Shown here in pieces: positions 1 to 50,185 of a DNA stretch of 64,000 bases; position 1 is the first letter of the stretch; each line of letters starts with the position of its first letter. The notes beneath the pieces are model-generated. The model searched no databases and was not told where the DNA came from. It was given only the letters and a program-made list of their open reading frames with translations. This DNA comes from Verrucomicrobiota bacterium. GTDB taxonomy: Bacteria; Verrucomicrobiota; Verrucomicrobiia; Verrucomicrobiales; DEV007. The stretch is from the NCBI GenBank assembly GCA_020630975.1, contig JAHDID010000028.1, positions 1-64,000 on the forward strand, in the 5' to 3' direction. A program made the position numbers and the translations under genes.

Positions 1-3000
1 TGTCTACGGTGTTGTCGCCATCGCCGGTGCTGATAGAATCATTCCCTCCTCCAGAGGTCACCTGGTTGTTACCATCACCGGTGGTCACGGTGTTGTCGCC
101 CTCTCCAGCATCCACAGTATTATTACCACTGCCAGCATCGACTGAGTCGTTGCCGCTACCGGAGGTGACGTTGTCATCACCTGCTCCAGCACTGACGGTG
201 TTATCGCCATCTCCGACATTGAGATTATCGCTACCGGAGCCGCTTGTTACATTATCAGATCCCGTACCTGTAGACACGGTGTTATTGCCGTCGCCAGTAT
301 TGATCGTGTTATCACCGTTTCCGGTGGTCACCGTGTCATCGCCGCCGCCAGACGTCACGTTATTGTTGCCATCGCCTGTTGATACCGTGTTGTCGCCGTC
401 GCCGGCATCGACTGTGTTGTTGCCACTGCCTGCATCAACCGAGTCACTACCGCTACCTGAAGTGACATTGTCATCACCGGCACCGGCGCTAACCGTGTTG
501 TTTCCATCTCCGACATTCAGATTGTCACTACCCGAGCCGCTTGTTACATTGTCCGAACCGGTACCAGTAGACACGGTGTTGTTACCGTCTCCGGTATCGA
601 TCGTGTTATCACCGTTTCCGGTGGTCACGGTATCATTTCCGCCGCCGGAGGTGACGGTGTTGTTACCACCACCTGTTGATACTGCGTTATCACCCTCACC
701 GGCATCCACGGTGTTGTTACCACTGCCTGCATCGATGGCGTCATTACCGCTGCCGGAGGTGACGCTGTCATCACCTGCTCCGGCGCTTACGGTGTTATTA
801 CCATCGCCTACGTTAAGATCATCACTACCAGAGCCACTCGTCACACTGTCTGCACCTGTGCCGGTGGTGACTGTGTTATTGCCGTCCCCAGTGTTAATGG
901 TGTTGTCGCCATTTCCGGTGGTCACGGTGTCATCGCCGCTGCCAGAGGTGACGCTGTTGTTGCCATCGCCTGTGGAAACTGAGTTGTTACCTTCTCCAGT
1001 GTCGACTGTGTTATTGCCATCCCCAGTGTTGATCGAGTCGTCGCCTCCACCGGAGGTCACCTGATTGTCTCCATCACCCGTCGATACGGTGTTATTACCT
1101 TCGCCGGCATCAACGGTGTTGTTGCCACTGCCTGCATCGACGGAGTCGTTGCCGCTTCCGGAGGTCACATTATCGTCACCTGCTCCTGCACTCACGGTGT
1201 TGTCACCGTCTCCAACATTGAGATCGTCGCTGCCCGCACCACTGGTTACATTGTCTGCGCCAGAACCAGAGGTCACAGAGTTGTTGCCGTCTCCAGTATT
1301 GATGGTGTTATCGCCATTTCCAGTGGTCACGGTATCATCGCCACCTCCAGAGGTGACATCATTGTTACCATCTCCAGTTGAAACATTGTTATCGCCTTCA
1401 CCGGCATCGACAGTGTTGTTGCCGCTGCCTGCATCAATGGCGTCATTGCCGCTACCGGAAGTGACGCTATCATCACCCGCTCCGGCGCTGACGGTGTTGT
1501 TGCCGTCTCCAACATTGAGGTCATCGCTGCCTGAGCCACTGGTCACATTGTCTGAGCCAGAACCTGAGGTCACGGAGTTGTTGCCGTCTCCGGTATTGAT
1601 CGTGTTATCACCGTTTCCGGTGGTCACCGTGTCATCTCCGCCTCCAGAGGTTACGTTGTTATTACCATCACCTGTCGAAACGGTGTTATCACCTTCACCG
1701 GCATCGACAGTGTTGTTGCCGCTACCTGCATCAATGGCGTCGTTGCCGCTGCCGGAGGTCACGTTATCATCGCCTGCTCCGGCGCTGACCGTGTTATTAC
1801 CATCTCCGACATTGAGATCATCGCTGCCTGAACCACTGGTCACATTGTCTGCGCCAGAGCCTGAGGTCACGGAGTTATTGCCGTCTCCGGTATTAATGGT
1901 GTTATCACCGTTTCCTGTGGTCACGGTATCATCGCCGCTACCAGACGTCACTTGGTTGTTGCCGTCGCCTGTTGATACAGAGTTATCACCCTCACCAGTG
2001 TCGACTGTGTTGTCGCCATCCCCGGTGTTGATCGAGTCATTCCCTCCTCCAGATGTCACCTGGTTGTTTCCGTCACCCGTCGATACGGTGTTGTCGCCTT
2101 CGCCGGCATCGACAGTGTTGTTACCACTGCCTGCGTCGACTGAGTCGTTGCCGCTGCCAGAGGTCACGTTGTCATCCCCTGCTCCGGCGCTCACGGTGTT
2201 GTCGCCGTCTCCGACGTTGAGATCATCACTACCGGAACCGCTAGTCACGTTGTCCGAACCAGTACCAGTAGACACGGTGTTGTTACCGTCTCCAGTGTTG
2301 ATCGTGTTATCACCGTTTCCGGTGGTAACCGTGTCATCGCCACCGCCAGACGTGACGCTATTGTTGCCATCGCCTGTTGATACAGAGTTATTACCCTCGC
2401 CAGTGTCGACTGTGTTTTCGCCGTCGCCGGTGTTGATAGAGTCATTCCCTTCACCAGAAGTTACCTGGTTGTTACCATCGCCGGTGGACACGGTGTTGTC
2501 GCCCTCACCAGCATCCACAGTATTATTACCACTACCAGCATCGACTGAGTCGTTGCCGCTACCGGAGGTGACGTTGTCATCACCCGCTCCAGCACTGACC
2601 GTATTGTTACCATCACCAACGTTGAGATCATCGCTGCCTGAACCGCTGGTCACGTTATCAGATCCTGTGCCGGTAGATACAGTATTATTACCATCTCCGG
2701 TATCGATGGTGTTGTCACCATTGCCTGTGGTGACTGTGTCGTCTCCACCGCCGGATGTCACATTGTTATTACCATCTCCTGTGGACACGGAGTTGTCGCC
2801 AGCACCAGTGTCTACGGTGTTATCACCGTCGCCGGTGTTGATAGAATCATTACCACTACCAGAGGTGACTTCATTATTACCGTCACCTGTTGAAACATTG
2901 TTATCGCCATCTCCTGCGTCGACCGTATTGTTACCGCTGCCAGCATCGATAGCATCATTTCCGCTACCTGAGGTCACACTGTCGTCGCCAGCTCCAGCGC

Positions 3001-6000
3001 TCACGGTGTTATTACCGTCGCCGACATTGAGATCGTCGCCGCCAGAGCCGCTGATCACTTCATCCGATCCTGTCCCTGTAGATACGGTGTTGTTGCCGTC
3101 GCCGGTATTGATCGTGTTATCACCATTTCCGGTGGTCACGGTGTCATCGCCACTACCTGAGGTCACATTGTTGTCGCCTTCGCCAGTTGAGACCGCGTTA
3201 TTGCCTTCGCCAGTATCAACTGTGTTGTCACCATCACCTGTATTAATCGAATCATCGCCACCTCCAGAGGTCACTTGGTTGTTACCATCGCCGGTTGAGA
3301 CATTGTTATCACCGTCTCCTGCATCGACAGTATTATTACCACTGCCTGCATCGATGGCATCATCGCCGCTTCCTGAGGTCACGTTGTCATCACCTGCTCC
3401 GGCGCTAACCGTGTTATTGCCATCGCCAACGTTGAGATCATCGCTGCCTGAACCACTGGTTACATTGTCTGATCCTGTACCAGTAGATACGCTATTGTTT
3501 CCATCCCCAGTATTTATGGTGTTATCACCATTGCCTGTGGTCACGGTGTCATCACCGCCTCCGGAGGTTACCTGGTTATTGCCGTCACCCGTTGAAACTG
3601 AGTTATTACCATCACCAGTGTCGACGGTGTTATCTCCGTCTCCGGTGTTGATCGAATCATTACCACCTCCAGAGGTGACTTCATTATTGCCGTCGCCCGT
3701 CGAAACGTTGTTATCACCATCGCCCGCATCCACGGTGTTGTTGCCACTACCCGCGTCGATAGCATCGTTACCACTACCTGAGGTCACATTGTCGTCGCCT
3801 GCTCCGGCGCTGACCGTGTTATTACCATCGCCTACATTCAGATCATCGCTGCCAGATCCGCTAGTCACATCGTCCGACCCAGAACCAGCGTTAACCGCGT
3901 TATCGCCGTCGCCTGTATCAATGGTGTTGTCGCCATTTCCGGTGGTCACCGTGTCGTTACCACTGCCTGATGTTACCTGGTTGTTACCATCGCCAGTAGA
4001 TACGGTGTTGTTACCTTCTCCGGTATTGACTGTATTGTCACCGTCGCCGGTGCTGACAGAATCATCTCCACCACCCGAGGTGACGTTGTTGTTGCCATCG
4101 CCGGTGGACACCGTGTTATTGCCCTCGCCTGTGTCTACGGTGTTATCACCGTCTCCAGTATTGACCGAGTCATTACCGCTTCCGGAGGTGACAGTGTTGT
4201 TTCCGTCGCCCGTGGATACACTGTTATTGCCGTCACCGGTGTCAACAGTGTTGTTTCCGCCACCTGTGCTGACCGAGTCATCCCCGCCACCTGACGTCAC
4301 GCTATTGTCGCCGTCGCCAGTGGAGACATTGTTATCGCCTTCACCTGCGTCGACTGTATTGTTACCACTGCCTGCATCTATGGCATCATTGCCGCCACCC
4401 GACGTCACATTGTCGTCGCCGGCGCCTGCACTGACGGTGTTATTGCCATCGCCGACATTCAAATCATCGCTACCAGAGCCGCTGGTCACTTCGTCGGATC
4501 CAGATCCTGTGTTCACAGCATTATCACCATCTCCGGTGTCGATGGTGTTGTCACCATTGCCAGTGTTGATCGTGTCGTTACCGCTTCCAGAAGTGACATC
4601 ATTATTTCCGTCACCTGTTGAAACGGTGTTATCACCTTCCCCTGTGTCGACTGTGTTGTCACCGTCGCCTGTGCTGACCGAGTCGTTACCACTGCCGGAA
4701 GTGACTTCGTTGTTACCGTCGCCAGTGGACACGCTGTTGTCACCATCGCCAGTATCAACGGTGTTATCACCATCACCGGTGGTGATAGAATCATTCCCGC
4801 CACCAGAAGTGACGTCATTGTTGCCGTCACCAGTTGAAACATTGTTATCACCATCTCCTGCATCAACAGTGTTGTTGCCGCTACCTGCATCGATGGCGTC
4901 ATTGCCGCCACCCGAAGTCACGTTGTCATCGCCAGCGCCTGCACTCACGGTGTTGTTACCATCGCCAACATTGAGGTCGTCGCTACCAGAGCCACTGGTC
5001 ACCTCATCGGAGCCAGATCCTGTGTTTACGGCATTATCACCATCGCCTGTATCAATGGTATTGTCGCCGTTTCCGGTGTTAATGGTATCATTGCCGCTAC
5101 CAGATGTGACATCGTTATTGCCGTCACCTGTTGATACAGTGTTATCACCTTCACCAGTGTCGACTGTGTTGTCGCCGTCACCAGTGCTGACTGAGTCGTT
5201 ACCACTACCGGAAGTGACTTCGTTATTACCGTCGCCTGTGGATACGCTGTTATCGCCATCACCGGTATCGACCGTGTTGTTGCCATCCCCGGTACTGACT
5301 GAGTCATTGCCGCCGCCAGAAGTGACTTCGTTGTCACCATCGCCCGTGGATACGCTATTGTTACCCTCACCAGTGTCGACGGTATTGTCACCATCACCTG
5401 TGCTAACCGAGTCATTACCGCTGCCCGAAGTCACTTCGTTGTTGCCATCTCCTGTGGACACGCTGTTATCGCCTTCTCCAGTATTGACTGTGTTGTTACC
5501 ATCGCCGGCCTCCACGGAGTCATTGCCGCTGCCAGAGGTGACGTTGTTATTTCCTTCTCCAGCGCTCACGGTATTATCACCATCGCCGACATTTAGATTG
5601 TCATCACCAGAACCGCTGGTCACCTCATCGGATCCTGACCCTGTGTTCACAGCATTATCGCCATCGCCGGTATCAATGGTGTTATCGCCATCGCCGGTGC
5701 TAATGGTGTCATTGCCGCTACCAGAGGTGACATCGTTGTTACCGTCACCTGTTGATACAGTGTTATCACCTTCACCAGTGTCGACAGTATTGTCGCCGTC
5801 ACCTGTACTGACTGAGTCGTTGCCACTGCCGGAGGTAACTTCGTTGTTACCATCGCCGGTGGACACACTGTTGTCGCCGTCTCCAGTATCGACTGTATTG
5901 TCGCCATCGCCTGTGCTAACTGAGTCGTTACCGCCGCCTGAGGTCACTTCGTTGTTACCGTCGCCGGTAGACACGCTGTTGTCGCCGTCTCCAGTGTCGA

Positions 6001-9000
6001 CAGTGTTGTCACCGTCACCTGCATTCACGGAGTCATTACCACTTCCCGAGGTGACGTTGTTATTTCCTTCTCCAGCGCTCACGGTATTATCACCATCGCC
6101 GACATCGAGATTGTCATCACCAGAGCCACTGGTCACCTCATCGGAGCCAGACCCTGTGTTCACCGCATTATCACCGTCACCGGTATCGATGGTATTGTCG
6201 CCATCACCGGTGTTAATGGTGTCGTTGCCACTGCCGGAAGTCACTTCGTTGTTGCCATCTCCGGTGGATACACTGTTGTCGCCTTCACCTGTATCAACAG
6301 TATTGTCGCCATCGCCTGCCTCCACAGAGTCATTACCACCTCCCGAAGTGACGGTGTTGTTGCCTTCACCCGCACTGACGGTGTTGTTACCATCGCCAAC
6401 ATTGAGCTGGTCATCGCCTGATCCGCTAGTGACTTGGTCCGATCCAGATCCTGAGTTGACTGCGTTGTCGCCGTCACCGGTATCGATGGTATTATCACCG
6501 TCACCTGTATTAACAGTGTCATTCCCGCTGCCAGACGTCACTTCGTTGTTACCATCGCCGGTGGACACACTGTTGTCGCCGTCTCCAGTATCGACTGTAT
6601 TGTCGCCATCGCCTGTGCTAACTGAGTCGTTACCGCCGCCTGAGGTCACTTCGTTGTTACCGTCGCCGGTAGACACGCTGTTGTCGCCGTCTCCAGTGTC
6701 GACAGTGTTGTCACCGTCACCTGCATTCACGGAGTCATTACCACTTCCCGAGGTGACGTTGTTATTTCCTTCTCCAGCGCTCACGGTATTATCACCATCG
6801 CCGACATTGAGATTGTCATCACCAGAACCGCTGGTCACCTCATCGGAGCCAGACCCTGTGTTCACCGCATTGTCGCCGTCACCGGTATCGATGGTATTGT
6901 CGCCATCGCCGGTGTTAATGGTGTCGTTGCCACTGCCCGAAGTCACTTCGTTGTTGCCATCACCGGTAGAAACGCTGTTATCACCTTCGCCAGTATCAAC
7001 GGTGTTATCACCATCACCAGTGCTGACTGAGTCGTTACCGCTGCCGGAGGTCACTTCGTTGTTGCCATCGCCAGTAGAAACGCTGTTATCGCCCTCGCCA
7101 GTGTCGACGGTGTTATCTCCATCACCAGTGCTAACTGAATCATTACCGCTACCGGAGGTCACTTCGTTGTTGCCATCGCCTGTGGAGACACTGTTGTCGC
7201 CATCTCCGGTGTCGACAGTATTATTCCCGTCGCCCGCCTGCACCGAGTCATTTCCACCGCCAGAGGTGACATTGTTATTCCCTTCGCCGGCACTAACAGT
7301 GTTGTTCCCGCCACCAACGTTAAGGTTATCATCCCCAGAACCACTGGTCACCTCATCAGATCCTGATCCTGAATTTACAGAGTTATTTCCATCGCCAGCA
7401 TCAATCCTATTGTCGCCATCGCCCGTACTGACTGAGTCATTGCCACTACCGGAAGTGATTTCATTGTTGCCATCGCCGGTGGATACACTGTTGTCACCTT
7501 CGCCAGTATCGACTGTGTTATTACCATCGCCTGCCTCTACTGAATCATTTCCGCTGCCAGAAGTTACATTGTTGTTACCCTCACCCGCGCTCACAGTGTT
7601 ATCACCGTCGCCGACATCTAGATTGTCATCACCAGAGCCACTGGTCACTTCATCGGCCCCAGATCCTGTGTTTACCGAATTATCACCATCTCCTGTATCG
7701 ATGGAGTTATTACCATCTCCAGTACTAATGGTGTCATTACCGCCACCAGAGGTGACTTCATTGTTTCCATCTCCAGTGGACACGCTGTTATCACCGTCGC
7801 CAGTGTCGACGGTATTGTCGCCGTCGCCTGCCTCTACGGAGTCATTGCCACCGCCCGAAGTAACCTGGTTATTTCCCTCGCCAGCGCTGACTGTATTATC
7901 ACCATCGCCGACATTCAATTCATCGTCACCTGAACCGCTTGTAACTTCGTCTGAACCAGATCCTGAGTTAACGGCATTATCTCCGTCTCCTGTATCGATG
8001 GTATTGTCGCCGTCCCCTGTGGTGACGGTGTCGTTACCAGAGCCTGATGTCACCTCATTATTACCATCTCCTGTAGAAACGGTGTTATCACCTTCTCCAG
8101 TGTCTACCGTGTTGTCGCCATCGCCGGCACTGACTGAGTCATTTCCGCTACCAGAAGTGACTTCATTATTACCGTCTCCAGTGGACACACTGTTATCGCC
8201 CTCGCCGGTGTCGACAGTGTTATCACCGTCGCCCGCGTTTACTGAGTCATCTCCACTACCAGAAGTGACTTGGTTATTACCTTCTCCAGCGCTGACCGTG
8301 TTGTCGCCATCACCGACATTGAGATTATCGTCACCAGAGCCACTGGTTACTTCATCTGAGCCAGATCCTGCATTCACAGCATTGTCACCATCGCCAGTAT
8401 CAATGGTATTGTCACCATCGCCAGTGTTCACGGTATCATTTCCTTCGCCGGATGTGACGCTGTTGTCTCCATCGCCCAGAGACACGTTATTATTGCCGCC
8501 TCCGGCATCAATACTGTTATCTCCGCTTCCGACCTGAATATTATCATTCCCTCCGCCAGAGGTCACCATATTGTCGCCTTCTCCCGCATCGACGGAGTTA
8601 TCTCCATCGCCTACATTGAAAGCATCATTACCAGCGCCACCGCTGACTTGATCGGCTCCTCCTCCGGTTGTGATGCTATTATCGCCATCGCCCGCATCGA
8701 TCGTATTTTGACCATCTCCCGTGGTTAGAATCACATCGTTACCACCACCGGTTAGGACATTGTTGTTACCACTGCCTGCGTCGATATTATTATTTCCGCC
8801 GGATGACTGGATGACATCATTTCCTGAACCAGAGAAAATGTTGTCATTGCCAGCACCTGTAGTTACCTGGTTATTACCTTCTCCGGCAGTGATGGTGTTG
8901 TCCCCCGACTTGGCATTGATGATGTCATTTCCCGATCCACCACTGTAGATGCCAGCAGCTTCCTGAGAGCTGTCGCCATCCATCATAGAGGACATGCCTG

Positions 9001-12574: not shown

Positions 12575-12613
12575 AAATTCAATAGGGTACAATTTTGAGT
12601 GAATAGGGTACAA
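12575..12613 (+). repeat. Paired AATAGGGTACA element, copy 1
   Basis: Two direct copies of AATAGGGTACA start at 12581 and 12602, exactly 21 bp apart, preceded by AAATTC and TG. The same arrangement recurs at 22744, 34531 and 50133. This copy lies just after the ileS stop codon, and its second half is the left arm of the downstream terminator hairpin. Confidence 0.85.
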
Positions 12614-12642
12614 AACCGATGAGTCGGTTTTGCTACCCTATT
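12602..12642. terminator. Bidirectional terminator hairpin between ileS and RND gene
   Basis: AATAGGGTAC plus AAAACCGA pairs with TCGGTTTTG plus TACCCTATT around a TGAG loop, giving 18 base pairs with one bulged C at 12633. A T-rich tail follows on the plus strand (12641-12650). It lies between convergent ileS and the RND permease and should stop both. The stop codon of the RND gene (12633-12635) is inside the right arm. Confidence 0.8.
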
Positions 12643-15600
12643 TCTCTTTTCTGGCGGAGCCACTTCTCGCTAGCTCGGCGACCACATAGGTGAAACACCG
12701 CAGGAGTCACCGTCATATCGAGGAGGGTGGAGCTGATGAGACCGCCGATGATGACGACTGCCATCGGGTAGAGGATCTCTTTGCCAGGGGCATCGGCTGC
12801 TAGAGCGATAGGGATGAGGGCTAGCCCCGCTGTGAGAGCAGTCATCATCACGGGGACGAGCCGCTCCAGAGAGCCGCGGATGATCATGTCTTTACCAAAT
12901 GCCTCTCCCTCCTCCGACATCAGATGTAGGTAGTGAGAAATCATCATGATGGTATTGCGCGAAGCGACCCCTGCGAGAGTGATCATGCCGACCAGACTGG
13001 CGACACTCACCGTGCCTACCATGATGCGCGTGAGCAGTATACCCCCTATCAAAGCCAGAGGTATATTCAGCATGACCTGGAGGACTAGGGCGACATTCTG
13101 CAGATGCGCATATAGCAGGATAAAGATCACTACCAATATGATGCAGGACAAAATACCTATCAGCCGAGCTGCCTGCCGCTGACTCTCAAACTGCCCCTCG
13201 AAGCGGACAAAGTAACCCTCCGGCAGCTGGATGCGCTCATCGATACGCGCCTGGATCTCCTCGACCACAGCACTGAGATCGCGCCCACTGACATTGCCAG
13301 ACACCACGATACGGCGCATCACATTCTCCCGACTGATCTCGTTGGGCCCTTTGCTCATCTCGACATCGGCTAGCAGCGAGAGCGGCACTTTCCTGCCCGA
13401 GCTGGTATCGATGAGCGTCTCGCGGATCGCCTCTATCGAGTGTCGCTCGTCTGCCTCGTAGCGCAGAAAGACATCGAAAGTGCGCTGCCCGTCTATGATC
13501 TGTGCCACCCGATGGCCGCCTAGCGCCACCTCCAGCACATCGGTGAGCTGGCCGACATTGGCTCCGTAGAGCTTGGTCTTTTCCCTATCGATGCGGATGT
13601 GTAGCTGCGGTACCAGCACTAGGCGCTGCACCTGTAGATCGACCAGCCCCTCCACATCGGCTATCGCCGCCTCGATCGACTGTGCCGAGCTGCGCAGCTG
13701 AGGCAGCTCTAGGCCAAATACCTTGATCGCTATCTGCGCCCGCACGCCGGACATGATGTGATCTAGCCGGTGAGAGATCGGCTGCCCGACTCCCATACCG
13801 ATACCTGGGATCTGGCTGACATGCGATCGCACATCGGCCATGATCTCCTCTCGCGTACGATCGGAGGGCGAAAGCTCGATATCGATCTCCGAGCTCTCGA
13901 CGCCCGAGGCATGCTCATCCATCTCCGCTCGCCCTGTGCGGCGGCCAGTCGAGCGCACCTCTGGCACGGCATCGAGCAGCGCTTTCTCCACGATCGATCC
14001 TATGCGGTCACTCTCCTCCAGCGAAGTGCCCGATGGCGTAGCGATGAAGACGATCGCTGTGCCCTCATTGAACTTTGGCAACAGCTCGCGCCCCATCTGG
14101 AAAAACTGCTGCACCGCCAAGACTCCTAGCAGGACCGCCATCACTATCGGCACCAAAGGCGCAGCCAAAGCAGGCCGCAGCAGTAGCCGCAGATCCAGCC
14201 ACTTCAGCCCACGCACGATGAAACTATCTCGCTCGCTACCTAGCCGCTTCATACCCGGCAGCAGGTAGGAGCACAGCACTGGGATGAGCGTGAGCGATAC
14301 CACAAAGGATGCCACCATCGCCACGATAGTCGCCTCGCCGATCGGTGCGAATAGCCTACCCTCGACACCGCTCAGCCCGAATAGCGGGATGAATACCAGC
14401 ACGATCAGTAGCGTGGCAAAGAATATCGAATTTCGCACCTCTCCCGAGGCATCCGCTATCACTCGCAGGATCGGCCGGGGCTGACCCGACTGGCGGTTCT
14501 CCCGCAGGCGGCGATAGACATTCTCGACATCGACTATGGCATCATCCACGACCATACCGACAGCCACCACCAGGCCACCGAGCGTCATAGTATTGATCGA
14601 CATCCCTTTGAGATGAAAGTAGATAGCCGCCACCGCAAAGGACACTGGGATCGCCGCCAGAGTGATGATAGTGGTGCGTAGATTCAGCAGAAAAAGCACC
14701 AGCACCACGACCACCATGAGCGCTCCATCTCGGACTGCCTCGCTGACATTGTGTATCGCCGTCTGGATAAAGGTCGCTTGTTTAAAGATGACCTCGATCT
14801 CCAGATCGCCCGGTGTCGACTGGCGCAGGCTATCGAGACGCGCCTCGATACGCCGAGTGAGCTGCACGGTATCAACACCTGGCTGCTTTTGCACGGTCAG
14901 GATCACTGCCTTGTCACCATTCACTCCGGCATCGCCACGCTGCACCCGTGGGCCGAATGTGACCTCTGCCACCTGGTGGAGCAGCACCGGCCGCCCAGCT
15001 CTCTCCGCTACGATGGTGTCGGCCAGGTCTTCCAGTTTGGCACTGCGGCCGATATTGCGCACGAGTAGCTCTTGATTGCGAAAGTTGAGGAATCCACCTG
15101 GAGTATTCGCCTGCGACTCGCCGATAGCACGCTCCACCTCCTGGATCGATACATCGTGAGCCGCCATCTGCTCGGGCGATAGGTAGACCTGGTACTGCCG
15201 CTGCTCGCCACCCATAGCGATGACCTGCGACACCCCTGGCACCGCCAGCAGCTGCGGGCGCAGCGTCCAGTCCGCGTAGGTGCGCATGTCCATAGCAGGC
15301 ACCTCATCCCCCGGGCTGGTGATACCGATCAGCAGTATCTCGCCCATCAGGGAGCTCACGGGGCCTAGCTGTGGATTGATATCGGCAGGCAGACGCTGCT
15401 CGGAGAGCCGGATACGCTCCTCCACCACTCGCCGGGCATGATAGATATCCGTGCCCCAGTCGAACTCCACATAGATGATCGATAGGCCGATACCACAGCT
15501 CGAGCGCACACGGATGACACCGGGCGCACCATTCAGCGATGTCTCTAGCGGTATCGATACTAAAGCCTCCACCTCCTCGGGCGCTAGCCCCTCGGTCTCG

Positions 15601-19978: not shown

Positions 19979-21034
19979 ATGAGAAACCCTAGACTGATCT
20001 TAGATCCAGAGGCTTGCGCCTACCATTGCATCACTCGCTGTGCGGGGCAGGCCTGGCTGTTTGATACTCCAGCTAGGCGGAGTGGTATCCAGCAGATTAT
20101 CTTCGCTGCTGCAGAGCTCAGAGGTGTGGAGCTAATCAACTATGCGATCCTCTCCAATCATCTGCATATTCTAGCCCGAATCCCTAGCCAGAAATCCCTG
20201 ACACCGCTTTCCAAAGACAGCATCATACGCTGTACTAAGGTCTTGTATCGCACAGATTGGGTGAGTGACCCCGAATCTGAGTTCGCCTCAGCCGAGAAGC
20301 TCGATAGGAGACGCTCTGACAATCATCACAGCCAAAAGATCCTCGATCGATTCGAGCAGAAAAGAGCCGATCTCTCCGGTTTCATGAAAGAGGTGAAGGA
20401 GCGTATCACTCGCTACATTAACAAAGAGCACAAGCGTAAAGGAGCCCTCTGGGATGGCCGCTTCAAAAGTGTGGTAGTGGAAAACACTCCACGAGCATTG
20501 CTAGCGGTATCGACCTACATCGATCTCAATGCTGTCCGAGCAGGCATCGTCGATCGTCCAGAGGACTACCGTTGGTGCGGTTATGCGGCTGCCCTCGGCG
20601 GGGATAGGAAAGCCCGCTCTGGATTAGCTAGCATCTATGGCCACCGAGGTGGCAGCAAAGACATCTCATGGTCGAGTATAGCAGCTGACTATCGCCAGTT
20701 TCTATACGAAAACGGACAACAGCAACAGGCGGAACCGAGCCGAGGCATAAAAGCTCGCAGAGGTATCACAGAGGCGTCTGTCCATAAGGAAATCTCTCGG
20801 CGCGGCCGTCTCCCGATCCATGAGGTGATGCACTATCGCGTGCGCTACTTCACCGATGGAGTCATTATCGGCTCTAGAGAGTTCGTCGATCAAGTGTTTG
20901 ATGATCATCGAGGTGGGTTGACCGCACCGAACTCGCAACGGGAAACAGGCGCTCGACCGATGCGCTGGGCCAACTGGTCAGGGCTGTGCAGCCTACGAGA
21001 CCTCCGATTAGAGATCATCAGTCAATTGCATTGA
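19979..21034 (+). CDS. REP-associated tyrosine transposase (RAYT, Y1 HUH family)
   Basis: This 351-residue protein belongs to the single-strand HUH nucleases related to IS200/IS605 TnpA. The HUH metal site is H61-L62-H63 in YAILSNHLHILARIP, and the likely catalytic tyrosine is Y146 in ERITRYINKEH, followed by the typical GALWDGRFKSVVVE segment and the STYIDLNAVRAGIV, PEDYRWCGYA motif. RAYTs bind and cleave REP hairpins and are usually single-copy, domesticated genes. Here no IS ends or accessory tnpB are present, but many REP-like hairpins occur in this window, and related CGCCTGTCCC boxes lie on both sides of the gene. The extended C-terminal part (from about 230) contains a further conserved-looking helix region with REFVDQVF. 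Full length and apparently intact. Confidence 0.92.
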   Translation: MRNPRLILDPEACAYHCITRCAGQAWLFDTPARRSGIQQIIFAAAELRGVELINYAILSNHLHILARIPSQKSLTPLSKDSIIRCTKVLYRTDWVSDPESEFASAEKLDRRRSDNHHSQKILDRFEQKRADLSGFMKEVKERITRYINKEHKRKGALWDGRFKSVVVENTPRALLAVSTYIDLNAVRAGIVDRPEDYRWCGYAAALGGDRKARSGLASIYGHRGGSKDISWSSIAADYRQFLYENGQQQQAEPSRGIKARRGITEASVHKEISRRGRLPIHEVMHYRVRYFTDGVIIGSREFVDQVFDDHRGGLTAPNSQRETGARPMRWANWSGLCSLRDLRLEIISQLH

Positions 21035-22743: not shown

Positions 22744-22783
22744 AAATTCAATAGGGTACAGTTTTGAGTGAATAGGGTACAAT
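22744..22783 (+). repeat. Paired AATAGGGTACA element, copy 2
   Basis: AATAGGGTACA begins at 22750 and 22771, exactly 21 bp apart. Over 39 bp this copy differs from copy 1 (12575) by one base, at 22761. It lies in the noncoding stretch next to the intron remnant. Confidence 0.85.
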
Positions 22784-22951
22784 TGCCCGGATCTGTCGTT
22801 TGGGGAGGGGGAGGAGAAGTCCCACTATTCGGTCGGGATGCCTGATTTCCCGAGCAGGCGCTGATTCAGAATGATGATCGAGTGTATACACCGATCGTGG
22901 TGAGTGATTTTTTTTTGCTCTTTGCTGACTCGAAGGTTGGCAAGGGTAGCT

Positions 22952-31788: not shown

Positions 31789-34700
31789 ATGCCCAGCACC
31801 ACCGCCTTTACCGAACTCCACGCTCGCTCTGCCTTCAGCTTCCTACGCGGCTCGTCGCAGCCTGAGGATCTGGTCGCCCGTGCTGCGCAGCTGGGCATGG
31901 GACGGGTCGCGGTGTTGGACCGGGATGGGGTGTATGGATCGGCGCGGGTGCACCATGCGGGCAAGGAGCTGGGGGTGAGCGGTATCGTCGGTGCGGAGGT
32001 GACGATGGCCGATGGCTCGGCGCTGCCGGTGCTGGTGAAAAGCCGCCAGGGCTACCAGAATCTGTGCCAGCAGATCACCCGCATGCAGCTGCGTGCAGAG
32101 AAAGGCGAGGGCCGAGTCGGCTGGAGTGAATGGGACGATGGTCGTGCCGAGGGACTGATGTGTCTGACTGGCGACGAGGAGGGTCCCGTGCGCCGAGCGC
32201 TGGAGCGTGGCGATCGGCAGCTGGCGCAGGAGTACACCCAGCGGCTGGTACAGCTATTTGGCAGGGAGAATGTCGCCGTGGAGGTGCAGCGCCACCTGAC
32301 CCGAGGCGAGCGCCATATCAATAACTGCCTGCGCGATCTGGCCGAGACCGAGGGGCTGCGCGTGGTGGCTAGCAATGGCGTGTGCTACGCCGAGCGCACT
32401 AGCCGCCTACTGCAGGATGCCTTTACCTGCCTACGCCATTACACCCATCTCGACCAGGCAGGCCGCCTGCTGGGGCGAAACTGCGAGCGCCACCTGAAGA
32501 GCGGTCAGCAGATGGCCGAGCTATTCGCCGACTGGCCAGAGGCGGTTGAGAATACCGCGCGCATCGCCGATGAGCTGGAGTTTGGCCTGGAGAATCTCGG
32601 TTATGAGTTCCCCAAATTTCCCACTGGAGAGGGCGAGACCATGGCCGATGTGCTGCGCCGCGAGACCTACATCGGTGCCGAGCGCCGCTATGGCACGGTC
32701 ACGCCCAAGATCAAAAAACAGCTCGAGCACGAGCTACGCATCATCGGGCAGCTGGGGTTTTGCGGCTACTTCCTCATCGTAAAGGATATCGTCGACTACG
32801 CGCGTAGCGATGGGGTGCTGGTACAGGGGCGAGGCAGCGCGGCGAATAGCGCGGTGTGCTACTGCCTAGGCATCACGGCGGTGGATGCGATCAAGCAGGA
32901 GTTGCTGTTTGAGCGATTCCTCAGCGAGGGACGCGAGAGCTGGCCAGATATCGATCTCGATCTACCCAGCGGCGAGCGGCGCGAGCGAGTGATCCAGCAC
33001 GTCTACCAAAAGTATGCCCCACGCGGCGCAGCGATGACGGCCAACGTCATCACCTACCGGGGGCGCAGCGCCATGCGCGAGATGGGCAAGGTGCTGAACC
33101 TGCCAGAGGATGTCATGGGTCGCTTCTCCGATCTCTACGGGCACGGCGATTTTCCCCACACCCTGGAGCTGGACGAGCAGATCCAGAAAGCCGGTCTCGC
33201 TGGCGATCACCCACGCCTGCCTGCGCTGGTCACCCTACTGCAGCAGGTCTACGGGCTGCCTAGGCATCTCGGCCAACACTCCGGCGGCATGATCATATCC
33301 GATCGCCCGCTCGATACCGTGGTGCCGCTGGAGAATGCCAGCATGCCCGGCCGTGTGGTAGTGCAGTGGGACAAAGACGACTGCGAGGACCTGGGTATCG
33401 TAAAGGTCGACTTACTCGGCCTAGGCATGATGGCTGCCATCCAGGATACCGTGGAGCTGTGCCGGGTTCGTGGCGATGGCCGAGAGTTCGACCTACACAC
33501 CATCCCACAGGACGATCCCGCTGTGTACGAGATGGCCTCAGCGGCGGATACTATCGGCGTGTTTCAGGTAGAAAGCCGCGCCCAGCAGGCCACCCTGCCG
33601 CGCATGCAGCCACGCTGCTTTTACGATCTGTGTGTGGAGGTAGCCCTGATCCGGCCTGGCCCCATCGTCGGCAATATGGTGCACCCCTACCTAAACCGCC
33701 GCCAGGGAAAGGAGCCGATCGACTACATACACCCCAGCTTCGAGGGCGTGCTAAAACGTACCCTCGGCGTGCCTATCTTTCAGGAACAGGTGCTGCAGAT
33801 GGCCATGATGATCGCCGATTTCACCGGCTCGCAGGCCGAGGAACTGCGCCGCGCGATCAGCTTCAATCGATCCGACGTGCGCATGCGCAAAGTCATGAAC
33901 AAGCTGCGCGCTGCGATGACGGCCAAGGGCGTGGAGGAAGAAGTACAGCAAAAGATCATCACCTCCATCCAGTCCTTCGCCCTCTACGGTTTCCCCGAGA
34001 GCCACGCCATCAGCTTTGCCCTGCTCGCCTACGTCAGCATCTGGCTAAAGGTGCATCGCCCAGCGGAATTCTACACCGCGTTGATCAATAACCAGCCGAT
34101 GGGCTTTTACTCCGTCGCTACTCTCATCAAAGATGCTGAGCGCCACGACATAAAGATCAAACCCGTCTGCGTCGAGCAGAGCGACTACGACACCACCGTA
34201 GAGAGCGACACCGAGATCCGCCTAGGCCTACGCCAGGTCAAAGGTCTAGATCGCGATGCTGCCGCCCGCATCGTCTACCAGCGCGCCCTAGCCGACTGGA
34301 CCAGTCTCGACGACTTTCTCCAGCGCACCCATATCCAGAAAGACCAGCGCCGCGTGTTGGCTAAGATCGGCGCGCTCAATTGCCTAGCCGAGCATCGGCG
34401 AGATGCGCTGTGGCGGGCAGAGAGTTTTCTCGATGCTGGGGACTTGTTTGCCTGGGCGGCGGCTTCGTCGCCTAGGGGAGGAGTGGAGGAGGTGCGAGGG
34501 GAGGAGGCGGGAATCTCTGCCTCTGAAGACAAATTCAATAGGGTACAGTCTGGACTGAATAGGGTACAATCGACTGTTCGCGATCGTAGAGGCGGCTTTC
34601 CAGCCGCCTCATCACTGCCCAATGCTGACACGGCGGCTGGAAAGCCACCGCTACGCCCGATGAACCCCATGGAGCGCCTGCACGCCGACTACGAGGGGCT

Positions 34701-50122: not shown

Positions 50123-50132
50123 AAAAGTAACG

Positions 50133-50170
50133 ATTCAATAGGGTACACAAAACACTCAATAGGGTACAAT
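50133..50170 (+). repeat. Paired AATAGGGTACA element, copy 4
   Basis: AATAGGGTACA begins at 50137 and 50158, exactly 21 bp apart, preceded by ATTC and CTC. It lies just after the DUF1501 stop. A REP-like hairpin follows 16 bp later. Confidence 0.85.
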
Positions 50171-50185
50171 AGGCCCTAAGACCTC

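Follow-up and report, generated by a model that had tools for sequence, protein, structure and literature searches.

The element reported here resembles several described systems in part. Sites of the matS and KOPS type are dispersed protein sites at regular distances, and the ends of Tn7- and Mu-type elements carry tandem transposase sites of about 22 bp, with spacing brought about by target immunity. The arrays that we describe share the dispersal at regular distances with the former and the tandem sites of about 22 bp with the latter, whose kind of spacing they may also have. Unlike matS or KOPS, they show no orientation skew, are multi-unit and are absent in some relatives of the same genus, and unlike the Tn7/Mu-type ends they have no element body, second inverted end or identified transposase. 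REP/BIME and other dispersed intergenic repeats also occur as hundreds of short intergenic copies restricted to a clade, whereas the present arrays have neither a conserved hairpin nor a link to RAYT genes, and combine an invariant word with a variable spacer and an exclusion zone. The uptake sequences of Neisseriaceae (DUS) and Pasteurellaceae (USS) are alike in having a short core that is exact, dialects that differ between species, an even spacing and no orientation bias, but are single words found about every 1 kb, in contrast to multi-unit arrays with a fixed 21- or 22-bp period every 10–20 kb.

The window, that is the whole stretch of 64,000 nucleotides that was analysed, had been given a first-pass annotation that claimed four pairs of a common word, AATAGGGTACA. 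All four pairs were recovered with their words 21 bp apart, and the claimed flanks were also present, with TTC before every first word and TG or TC before every second (Table 1). The eight exact words compare with a chance expectation of 0.32 matches even when one mismatch is allowed, and an Rfam search of the window gave no match. Three of the pairs had been placed just after genes or in noncoding DNA, which agrees with our findings: array 1 lies 15 nt past a tRNA-synthetase-like ORF's stop codon and ahead of the point where a convergent AcrB-like ORF ends, array 4 lies 14 nt past the stop of a DUF1501 ORF with the next ORF 63 bp further on, and array 2 is noncoding as judged with a purpose-written gene caller. 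The remaining array lies within a DnaE-like ORF, where it is translated in frame as NRVQSGLNRVQS between the HHH_6 and OB domains. Since the alignment of this ORF with solved homologues ends at residues 872–897, array 3 falls in a region of the protein that has no counterpart of solved structure.

Table 1. Position and composition of the four arrays in the window
Array	Units	Position	Strand	First word	Second word	Spacer
1	2	12575..12616	+	12581-12591	12602-12612	ATTTTGAGTG
2	2	22744..22785	+	22750-22760	22771-22781	GTTTTGAGTG
3	2	34531..34572	+	34537-34547	34558-34568	GTCTGGACTG
4	2	50131..50172	+	50137-50147	50158-50168	CAAAACACTC

Other repeats were seen in the same window. After array 1 comes a hairpin in which the word recurs as an inverted copy (TACCCTATT, at 12634); across 12602–12643 the second word pairs with this copy in a long stem between the two convergent genes, possibly a terminator. 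A palindromic repeat (34585–34655) directly follows array 3, bringing two repeat types together in one coding linker. REP-like palindromes (CAAGGAGGGGCGACG...) occur at 22949, 35153, 50183, 51607 and 51711, and a Y1_Tnp gene at 19979–21034. Positions 1–8537 hold a very long ORF (2490 aa) and one upstream of it, built of 27-, 81- and 108-bp repeats; the 2490-aa ORF had no Pfam match.

Throughout the 7.14-Mb genome that carries the window, AATAGGGTACA-N10-AATAGGGTACA occurs 338 times, compared with 0 for the reversed control, so the pair is by no means absent elsewhere. The annotation had put all copies on the plus strand, which is true of the four window pairs but is a small-sample effect, since 184 of the 338 are forward and 154 reverse. 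We read 1.19 Mb of this genome directly (six contigs plus the window) and found 119 exact words, with 0 in shuffled sequence, while words with one mismatch were close to background (18 vs 15). A chance origin of the word and its pairs is rejected. The exact words form 61 arrays. Of these, 43 have two exact units, six have three and one has four, while the other 11 have a single exact unit, mostly beside a mutated partner; none of the 61 is of mixed strand. Neighbouring exact units are spaced by 21 bp in 57 of 58 cases and by 22 bp in the other, so that the spacing noticed in the window is maintained in further copies. Within the fetched sequence of this genome direct pairs at 21 bp numbered 68 vs 2 inverted pairs, the latter at one place.

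Since many loci were collected by exact matching, the conservation of the word is better judged from the one-mismatch counts above and from the weight matrix than from those lists. A weight-matrix pair scan of the 1.19 Mb gave 76 hits (shuffles 0), and in a scan of this type the exact word was kept in 115 of 137 units, with 24 of 38 mismatches within its final three bases. Eight of the ten spacer positions, on the other hand, differ in 22–66% of array pairs. The unit profile spans about 17–19 bp, here RAYTS-AATAGGGTACA-RTY, with weak arms on the left (RAYTS) and right (RTY), and the element would accordingly be defined as an array of at least two direct copies of such a site. With a period of 21 bp in this genome and 22 bp in its relatives, adjacent sites lie on the same side of the helix. 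The invariant word, the free spacers, the two-turn period and the constant register of the longer arrays all speak for a protein bound to adjacent sites on one face of the helix. The annotation's proposal that a protein reads sites of fixed geometry is supported by the constant word, the variable spacer and the 21/22-bp period that longer arrays retain.

With genes called as above, 53 of the 61 arrays are intergenic and eight overlap called genes. Tandem gene pairs flank 34 of the intergenic arrays (28.0 expected by bp), convergent pairs 13 (15.2) and divergent pairs six (9.7). These classes are near expectation, and a promoter preference is absent. Placement was similar in another sample, of 87 arrays, that overlaps the first (39 tandem, 19 convergent, eight divergent, eight inside, 11 partly overlapping, two open). 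Tandem sites two turns apart are common among activators, and the arrays could be read as operators through which one transcriptional regulator controls a very large regulon, as their format and the position of some G031 arrays close upstream of start codons would allow. We regard this as quite improbable, since so few of the intergenic arrays are divergent relative to convergent, those between tandem genes follow the gene direction in 15 cases and oppose it in 19, and the 113 flanking proteins hit 170 Pfam families of which the commonest, sulfatase, occurs in only five. The lack of any relation to transcription points to an action at the DNA level. Replication-oriented sites were also considered and rejected, as the array strand matches the local GC skew in only 27 of the 61.

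The arrays are evenly spaced. The 54 inter-array gaps in the 1.19 Mb average 18.9 kb, and apart from one of 0.9 kb all are at least 6.0 kb. Gaps under 5 kb thus occur once in 54, compared with 19.0 expected for random intergenic sites and a minimum of eight in 10,000 simulations. In G043, a genome of another genus, the 51 gaps among the listed pairs have a minimum of 3.7 kb, and on contigs with at least three arrays gaps under 7 kb number 4 of 39 vs 10.2 expected (p 0.003); these gaps are taken from exact pairs among the matches listed, so that long gaps are inflated. On one G024 contig the coefficient of variation (CV) of the gaps was 0.36 vs 0.81 (p 0.017). The spacing pattern shows an exclusion zone between arrays, which target immunity might have produced. 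Even spacing calls for a rule acting over several kb, and this could come from target immunity, from selection on chromosome layout or from a drive saturating locally. A separate observation concerns contig C33, where an array-free block of low G+C (~37–68 kb, L137–L139; 42–47% vs ~54%) lies inside a 75-kb array gap, its genes tightly packed and, in the 20 kb examined, on the minus strand.

Selection on layout would be at work if the arrays were chromosome-organising sites, bound by a nucleoid or segregation protein and kept at about one per 10–20 kb as anchors or domain marks. The even spacing, the invariance of the word, the neutrality of orientation, the same-face geometry and the functionally mixed flanking genes are all in keeping with such a role. 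We nevertheless consider it rather unlikely, although the most probable of the alternatives, since the arrays are patchy among relatives, are decayed in G014 and G011 and occupy mostly different positions in this genome and G024, as set out below.

The genomes compared (relatives are coded G002–G043, this genome G000) are mostly drafts. None of the 94 other genomes searched contained the exact pair of this genome. When the core was relaxed to AATAGGG, with the 21-bp period kept, 7 of 287 other genomes of the order gave matches, of which only G018 was judged convincing. There the array sits in a stretch of about 250 bp common to both genomes that looks like a mobile-element remnant. The stretches concerned (L240/L241, about 250–300 bp in G000:C32 and G018:C118) are 85% identical and have the array at one end. 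Pairs of AAYAGGGT with a free gap occurred at least once in 36 of 74 genomes of the family, this one included, while the reversed control gave at most three in any genome. Counts ranged from 598 in G024, 190 in G009, 186 in G043, 169 in G029 and 160 in G041 down to values of one or two, for which chance may account, and G026, G021 and G016 had none. The G024 dialect is AACAGGGTACA with a 22-bp period, and two further genera use AACAGGGT, also at 22 bp. In G024 we counted 21 arrays in 306 kb, some stretches of which were picked because the contig held a match, and nine arrays in 174 kb on ten contigs that were not picked in this way. Pairs in the fetched G024 sequence were direct at 21–22 bp in 32 cases vs two inverted and two everted. 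A word-blind search recovers the dialects of both this genome and G024, and found nothing, with any word, in 191 kb of G026, which belongs to the same genus, or in 200 kb of G034.

The spacers have their own character in some relatives. In G009 the spacer between words approximates to RGGTC-NNN-GACCTA, a short dyad (45 spacers among the matches listed). In G043 (L307–L336) it is often GATC-NNN-GATC with GGA/TCC or GCC/GGC at the centre in either orientation, and this asymmetric centre looks as if it were able to flip. Among the matches listed in a scan of genome contigs, which do not amount to a census, one in Nostoc was judged to be an unrelated local repeat with the same word. A viral source was rejected, the three dialect patterns having 0 matches in viral contigs.

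Species dialects, together with the exact core and even spacing, are also what a signal of self-recognition in uptake or transfer would produce, if recombination biased by recognition, as for DUS or USS, fixed the word, evened the spacing and made the dialects. PMC1939737 discusses how evenly uptake sequences are spaced, and a ComEC-like protein is encoded in 58 of the 74 family genomes, including this one, G024 and G043. We think this reading unlikely. ComEC-like genes are found in array-free genomes too and so do not discriminate. We know of no precedent for a two-unit format, and this format, together with linked spacers in this genome that suggest copying, speaks against the reading. The array density, one per ~19 kb, is also about ten-fold under the USS spacing of ~1 kb given in PMC7811141.

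The first-pass annotation had pointed to RAYT genes, and a REP-type element moved by a RAYT transposase would fit short intergenic repeats in a window that holds a Y1_Tnp gene and REP-like palindromes. The tie was not borne out: array counts do not track those of Y1_Tnp across 39 genomes (Spearman 0.16, p 0.34), two genomes that lack a Y1_Tnp match, G009 (190 pairs) and G002, do have pairs, and neither 213 units of this genome nor 54 of G024 show consistent stem covariation, so that a RAYT link was rejected and a REP-type element appears highly improbable. A hairpin or RNA element was likewise tried and rejected; the variable flanks looked complementary by eye, but a permutation test gave no consistent covariation, and G009 was similarly inconsistent.

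Comparison of related genomes indicates turnover. This genome and G024 are both high-copy species of one genus. We looked in about 1.5 Mb of this genome for counterparts of the sequences flanking 21 G024 arrays, and found homologous genes for 16. At these genes the array of this genome is usually kilobases away, meaning that positions are mostly not shared, and one case (L044) may be common to both. G014 and G031, ~92% identical at one compared locus, have two arrays in common. Four of the 18 fetched G031 array loci were compared with G014 and G011, and all four counterparts were recognisable but altered, through mutation of words, the deletion of one word or the inversion of a word. A clean empty site was found at 0 of these four loci, and with altered counterparts in place of empty sites an insertion event was not seen.

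Copying is nevertheless suggested by the spacers of this genome. Among 82 two-unit arrays, 134 pairs have identical spacers vs 20.8 under column shuffling (maximum 51), and unit-1 flanks differ from unit-2 flanks; the identity of linked spacers together with this difference suggests copying. Elsewhere no spacer recurred among the 16 pairs tested in G024 or the 16 tested in G031, and G043 had 28 different spacers among 30. A simple burst of copying is at odds with words that hardly vary beside spacers that do. The annotation's alternative of a mobile motif with constrained geometry therefore fares unevenly, since position turnover, linked spacers and the in-frame copy in the dnaE-like ORF favour it, while a transposase was not found (rve/TnsB genes being outside the search) and target duplications were not above chance in the frames tested.

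Patchiness, decay and turnover of positions favour a dispersing element over a constitutive chromosome scaffold, and lead us to rank a dispersing element first, chromosome organisation second and uptake-like self-recognition third. Our best reading, which we hold tentatively, is that the arrays are cooperative sites for one DNA-binding protein, dispersed within lineages and held apart by a spacing rule. One predicted sequence-specific protein would bind adjacent units cooperatively. Within each lineage, copying or insertion would have spread the arrays, and a rule dependent on recognition would keep them apart, either because a transposase-type reader confers target immunity or because a drive saturates locally. 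Against this best reading stand the variable spacers beside near-invariant words, the altered counterparts of the G031 arrays and the lack of an identified reader or transposase gene, of target duplications above chance in the frames tested and of an observed insertion event. A full-text literature search, whose coverage excluded most subscription journals and all bioRxiv preprints, found no description of the element. It may, with similar reserve, represent an undescribed genome-wide recognition system, in which a dedicated protein reads tandem sites two turns apart, word and period are rewritten genome-wide in each species and a spacing rule holds arrays about 10–20 kb from one another.

For a word that is exact at hundreds of noncoding places, with fixed geometry, even spacing and dialects, the simplest explanation is that something reads it. 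Identifying the reader would bring to light a new mode of chromosome organisation, a new code for self-recognition or a very small mobile element that has target immunity. The series of dialects within one family offers natural material on how a protein and several hundred of its sites change together.
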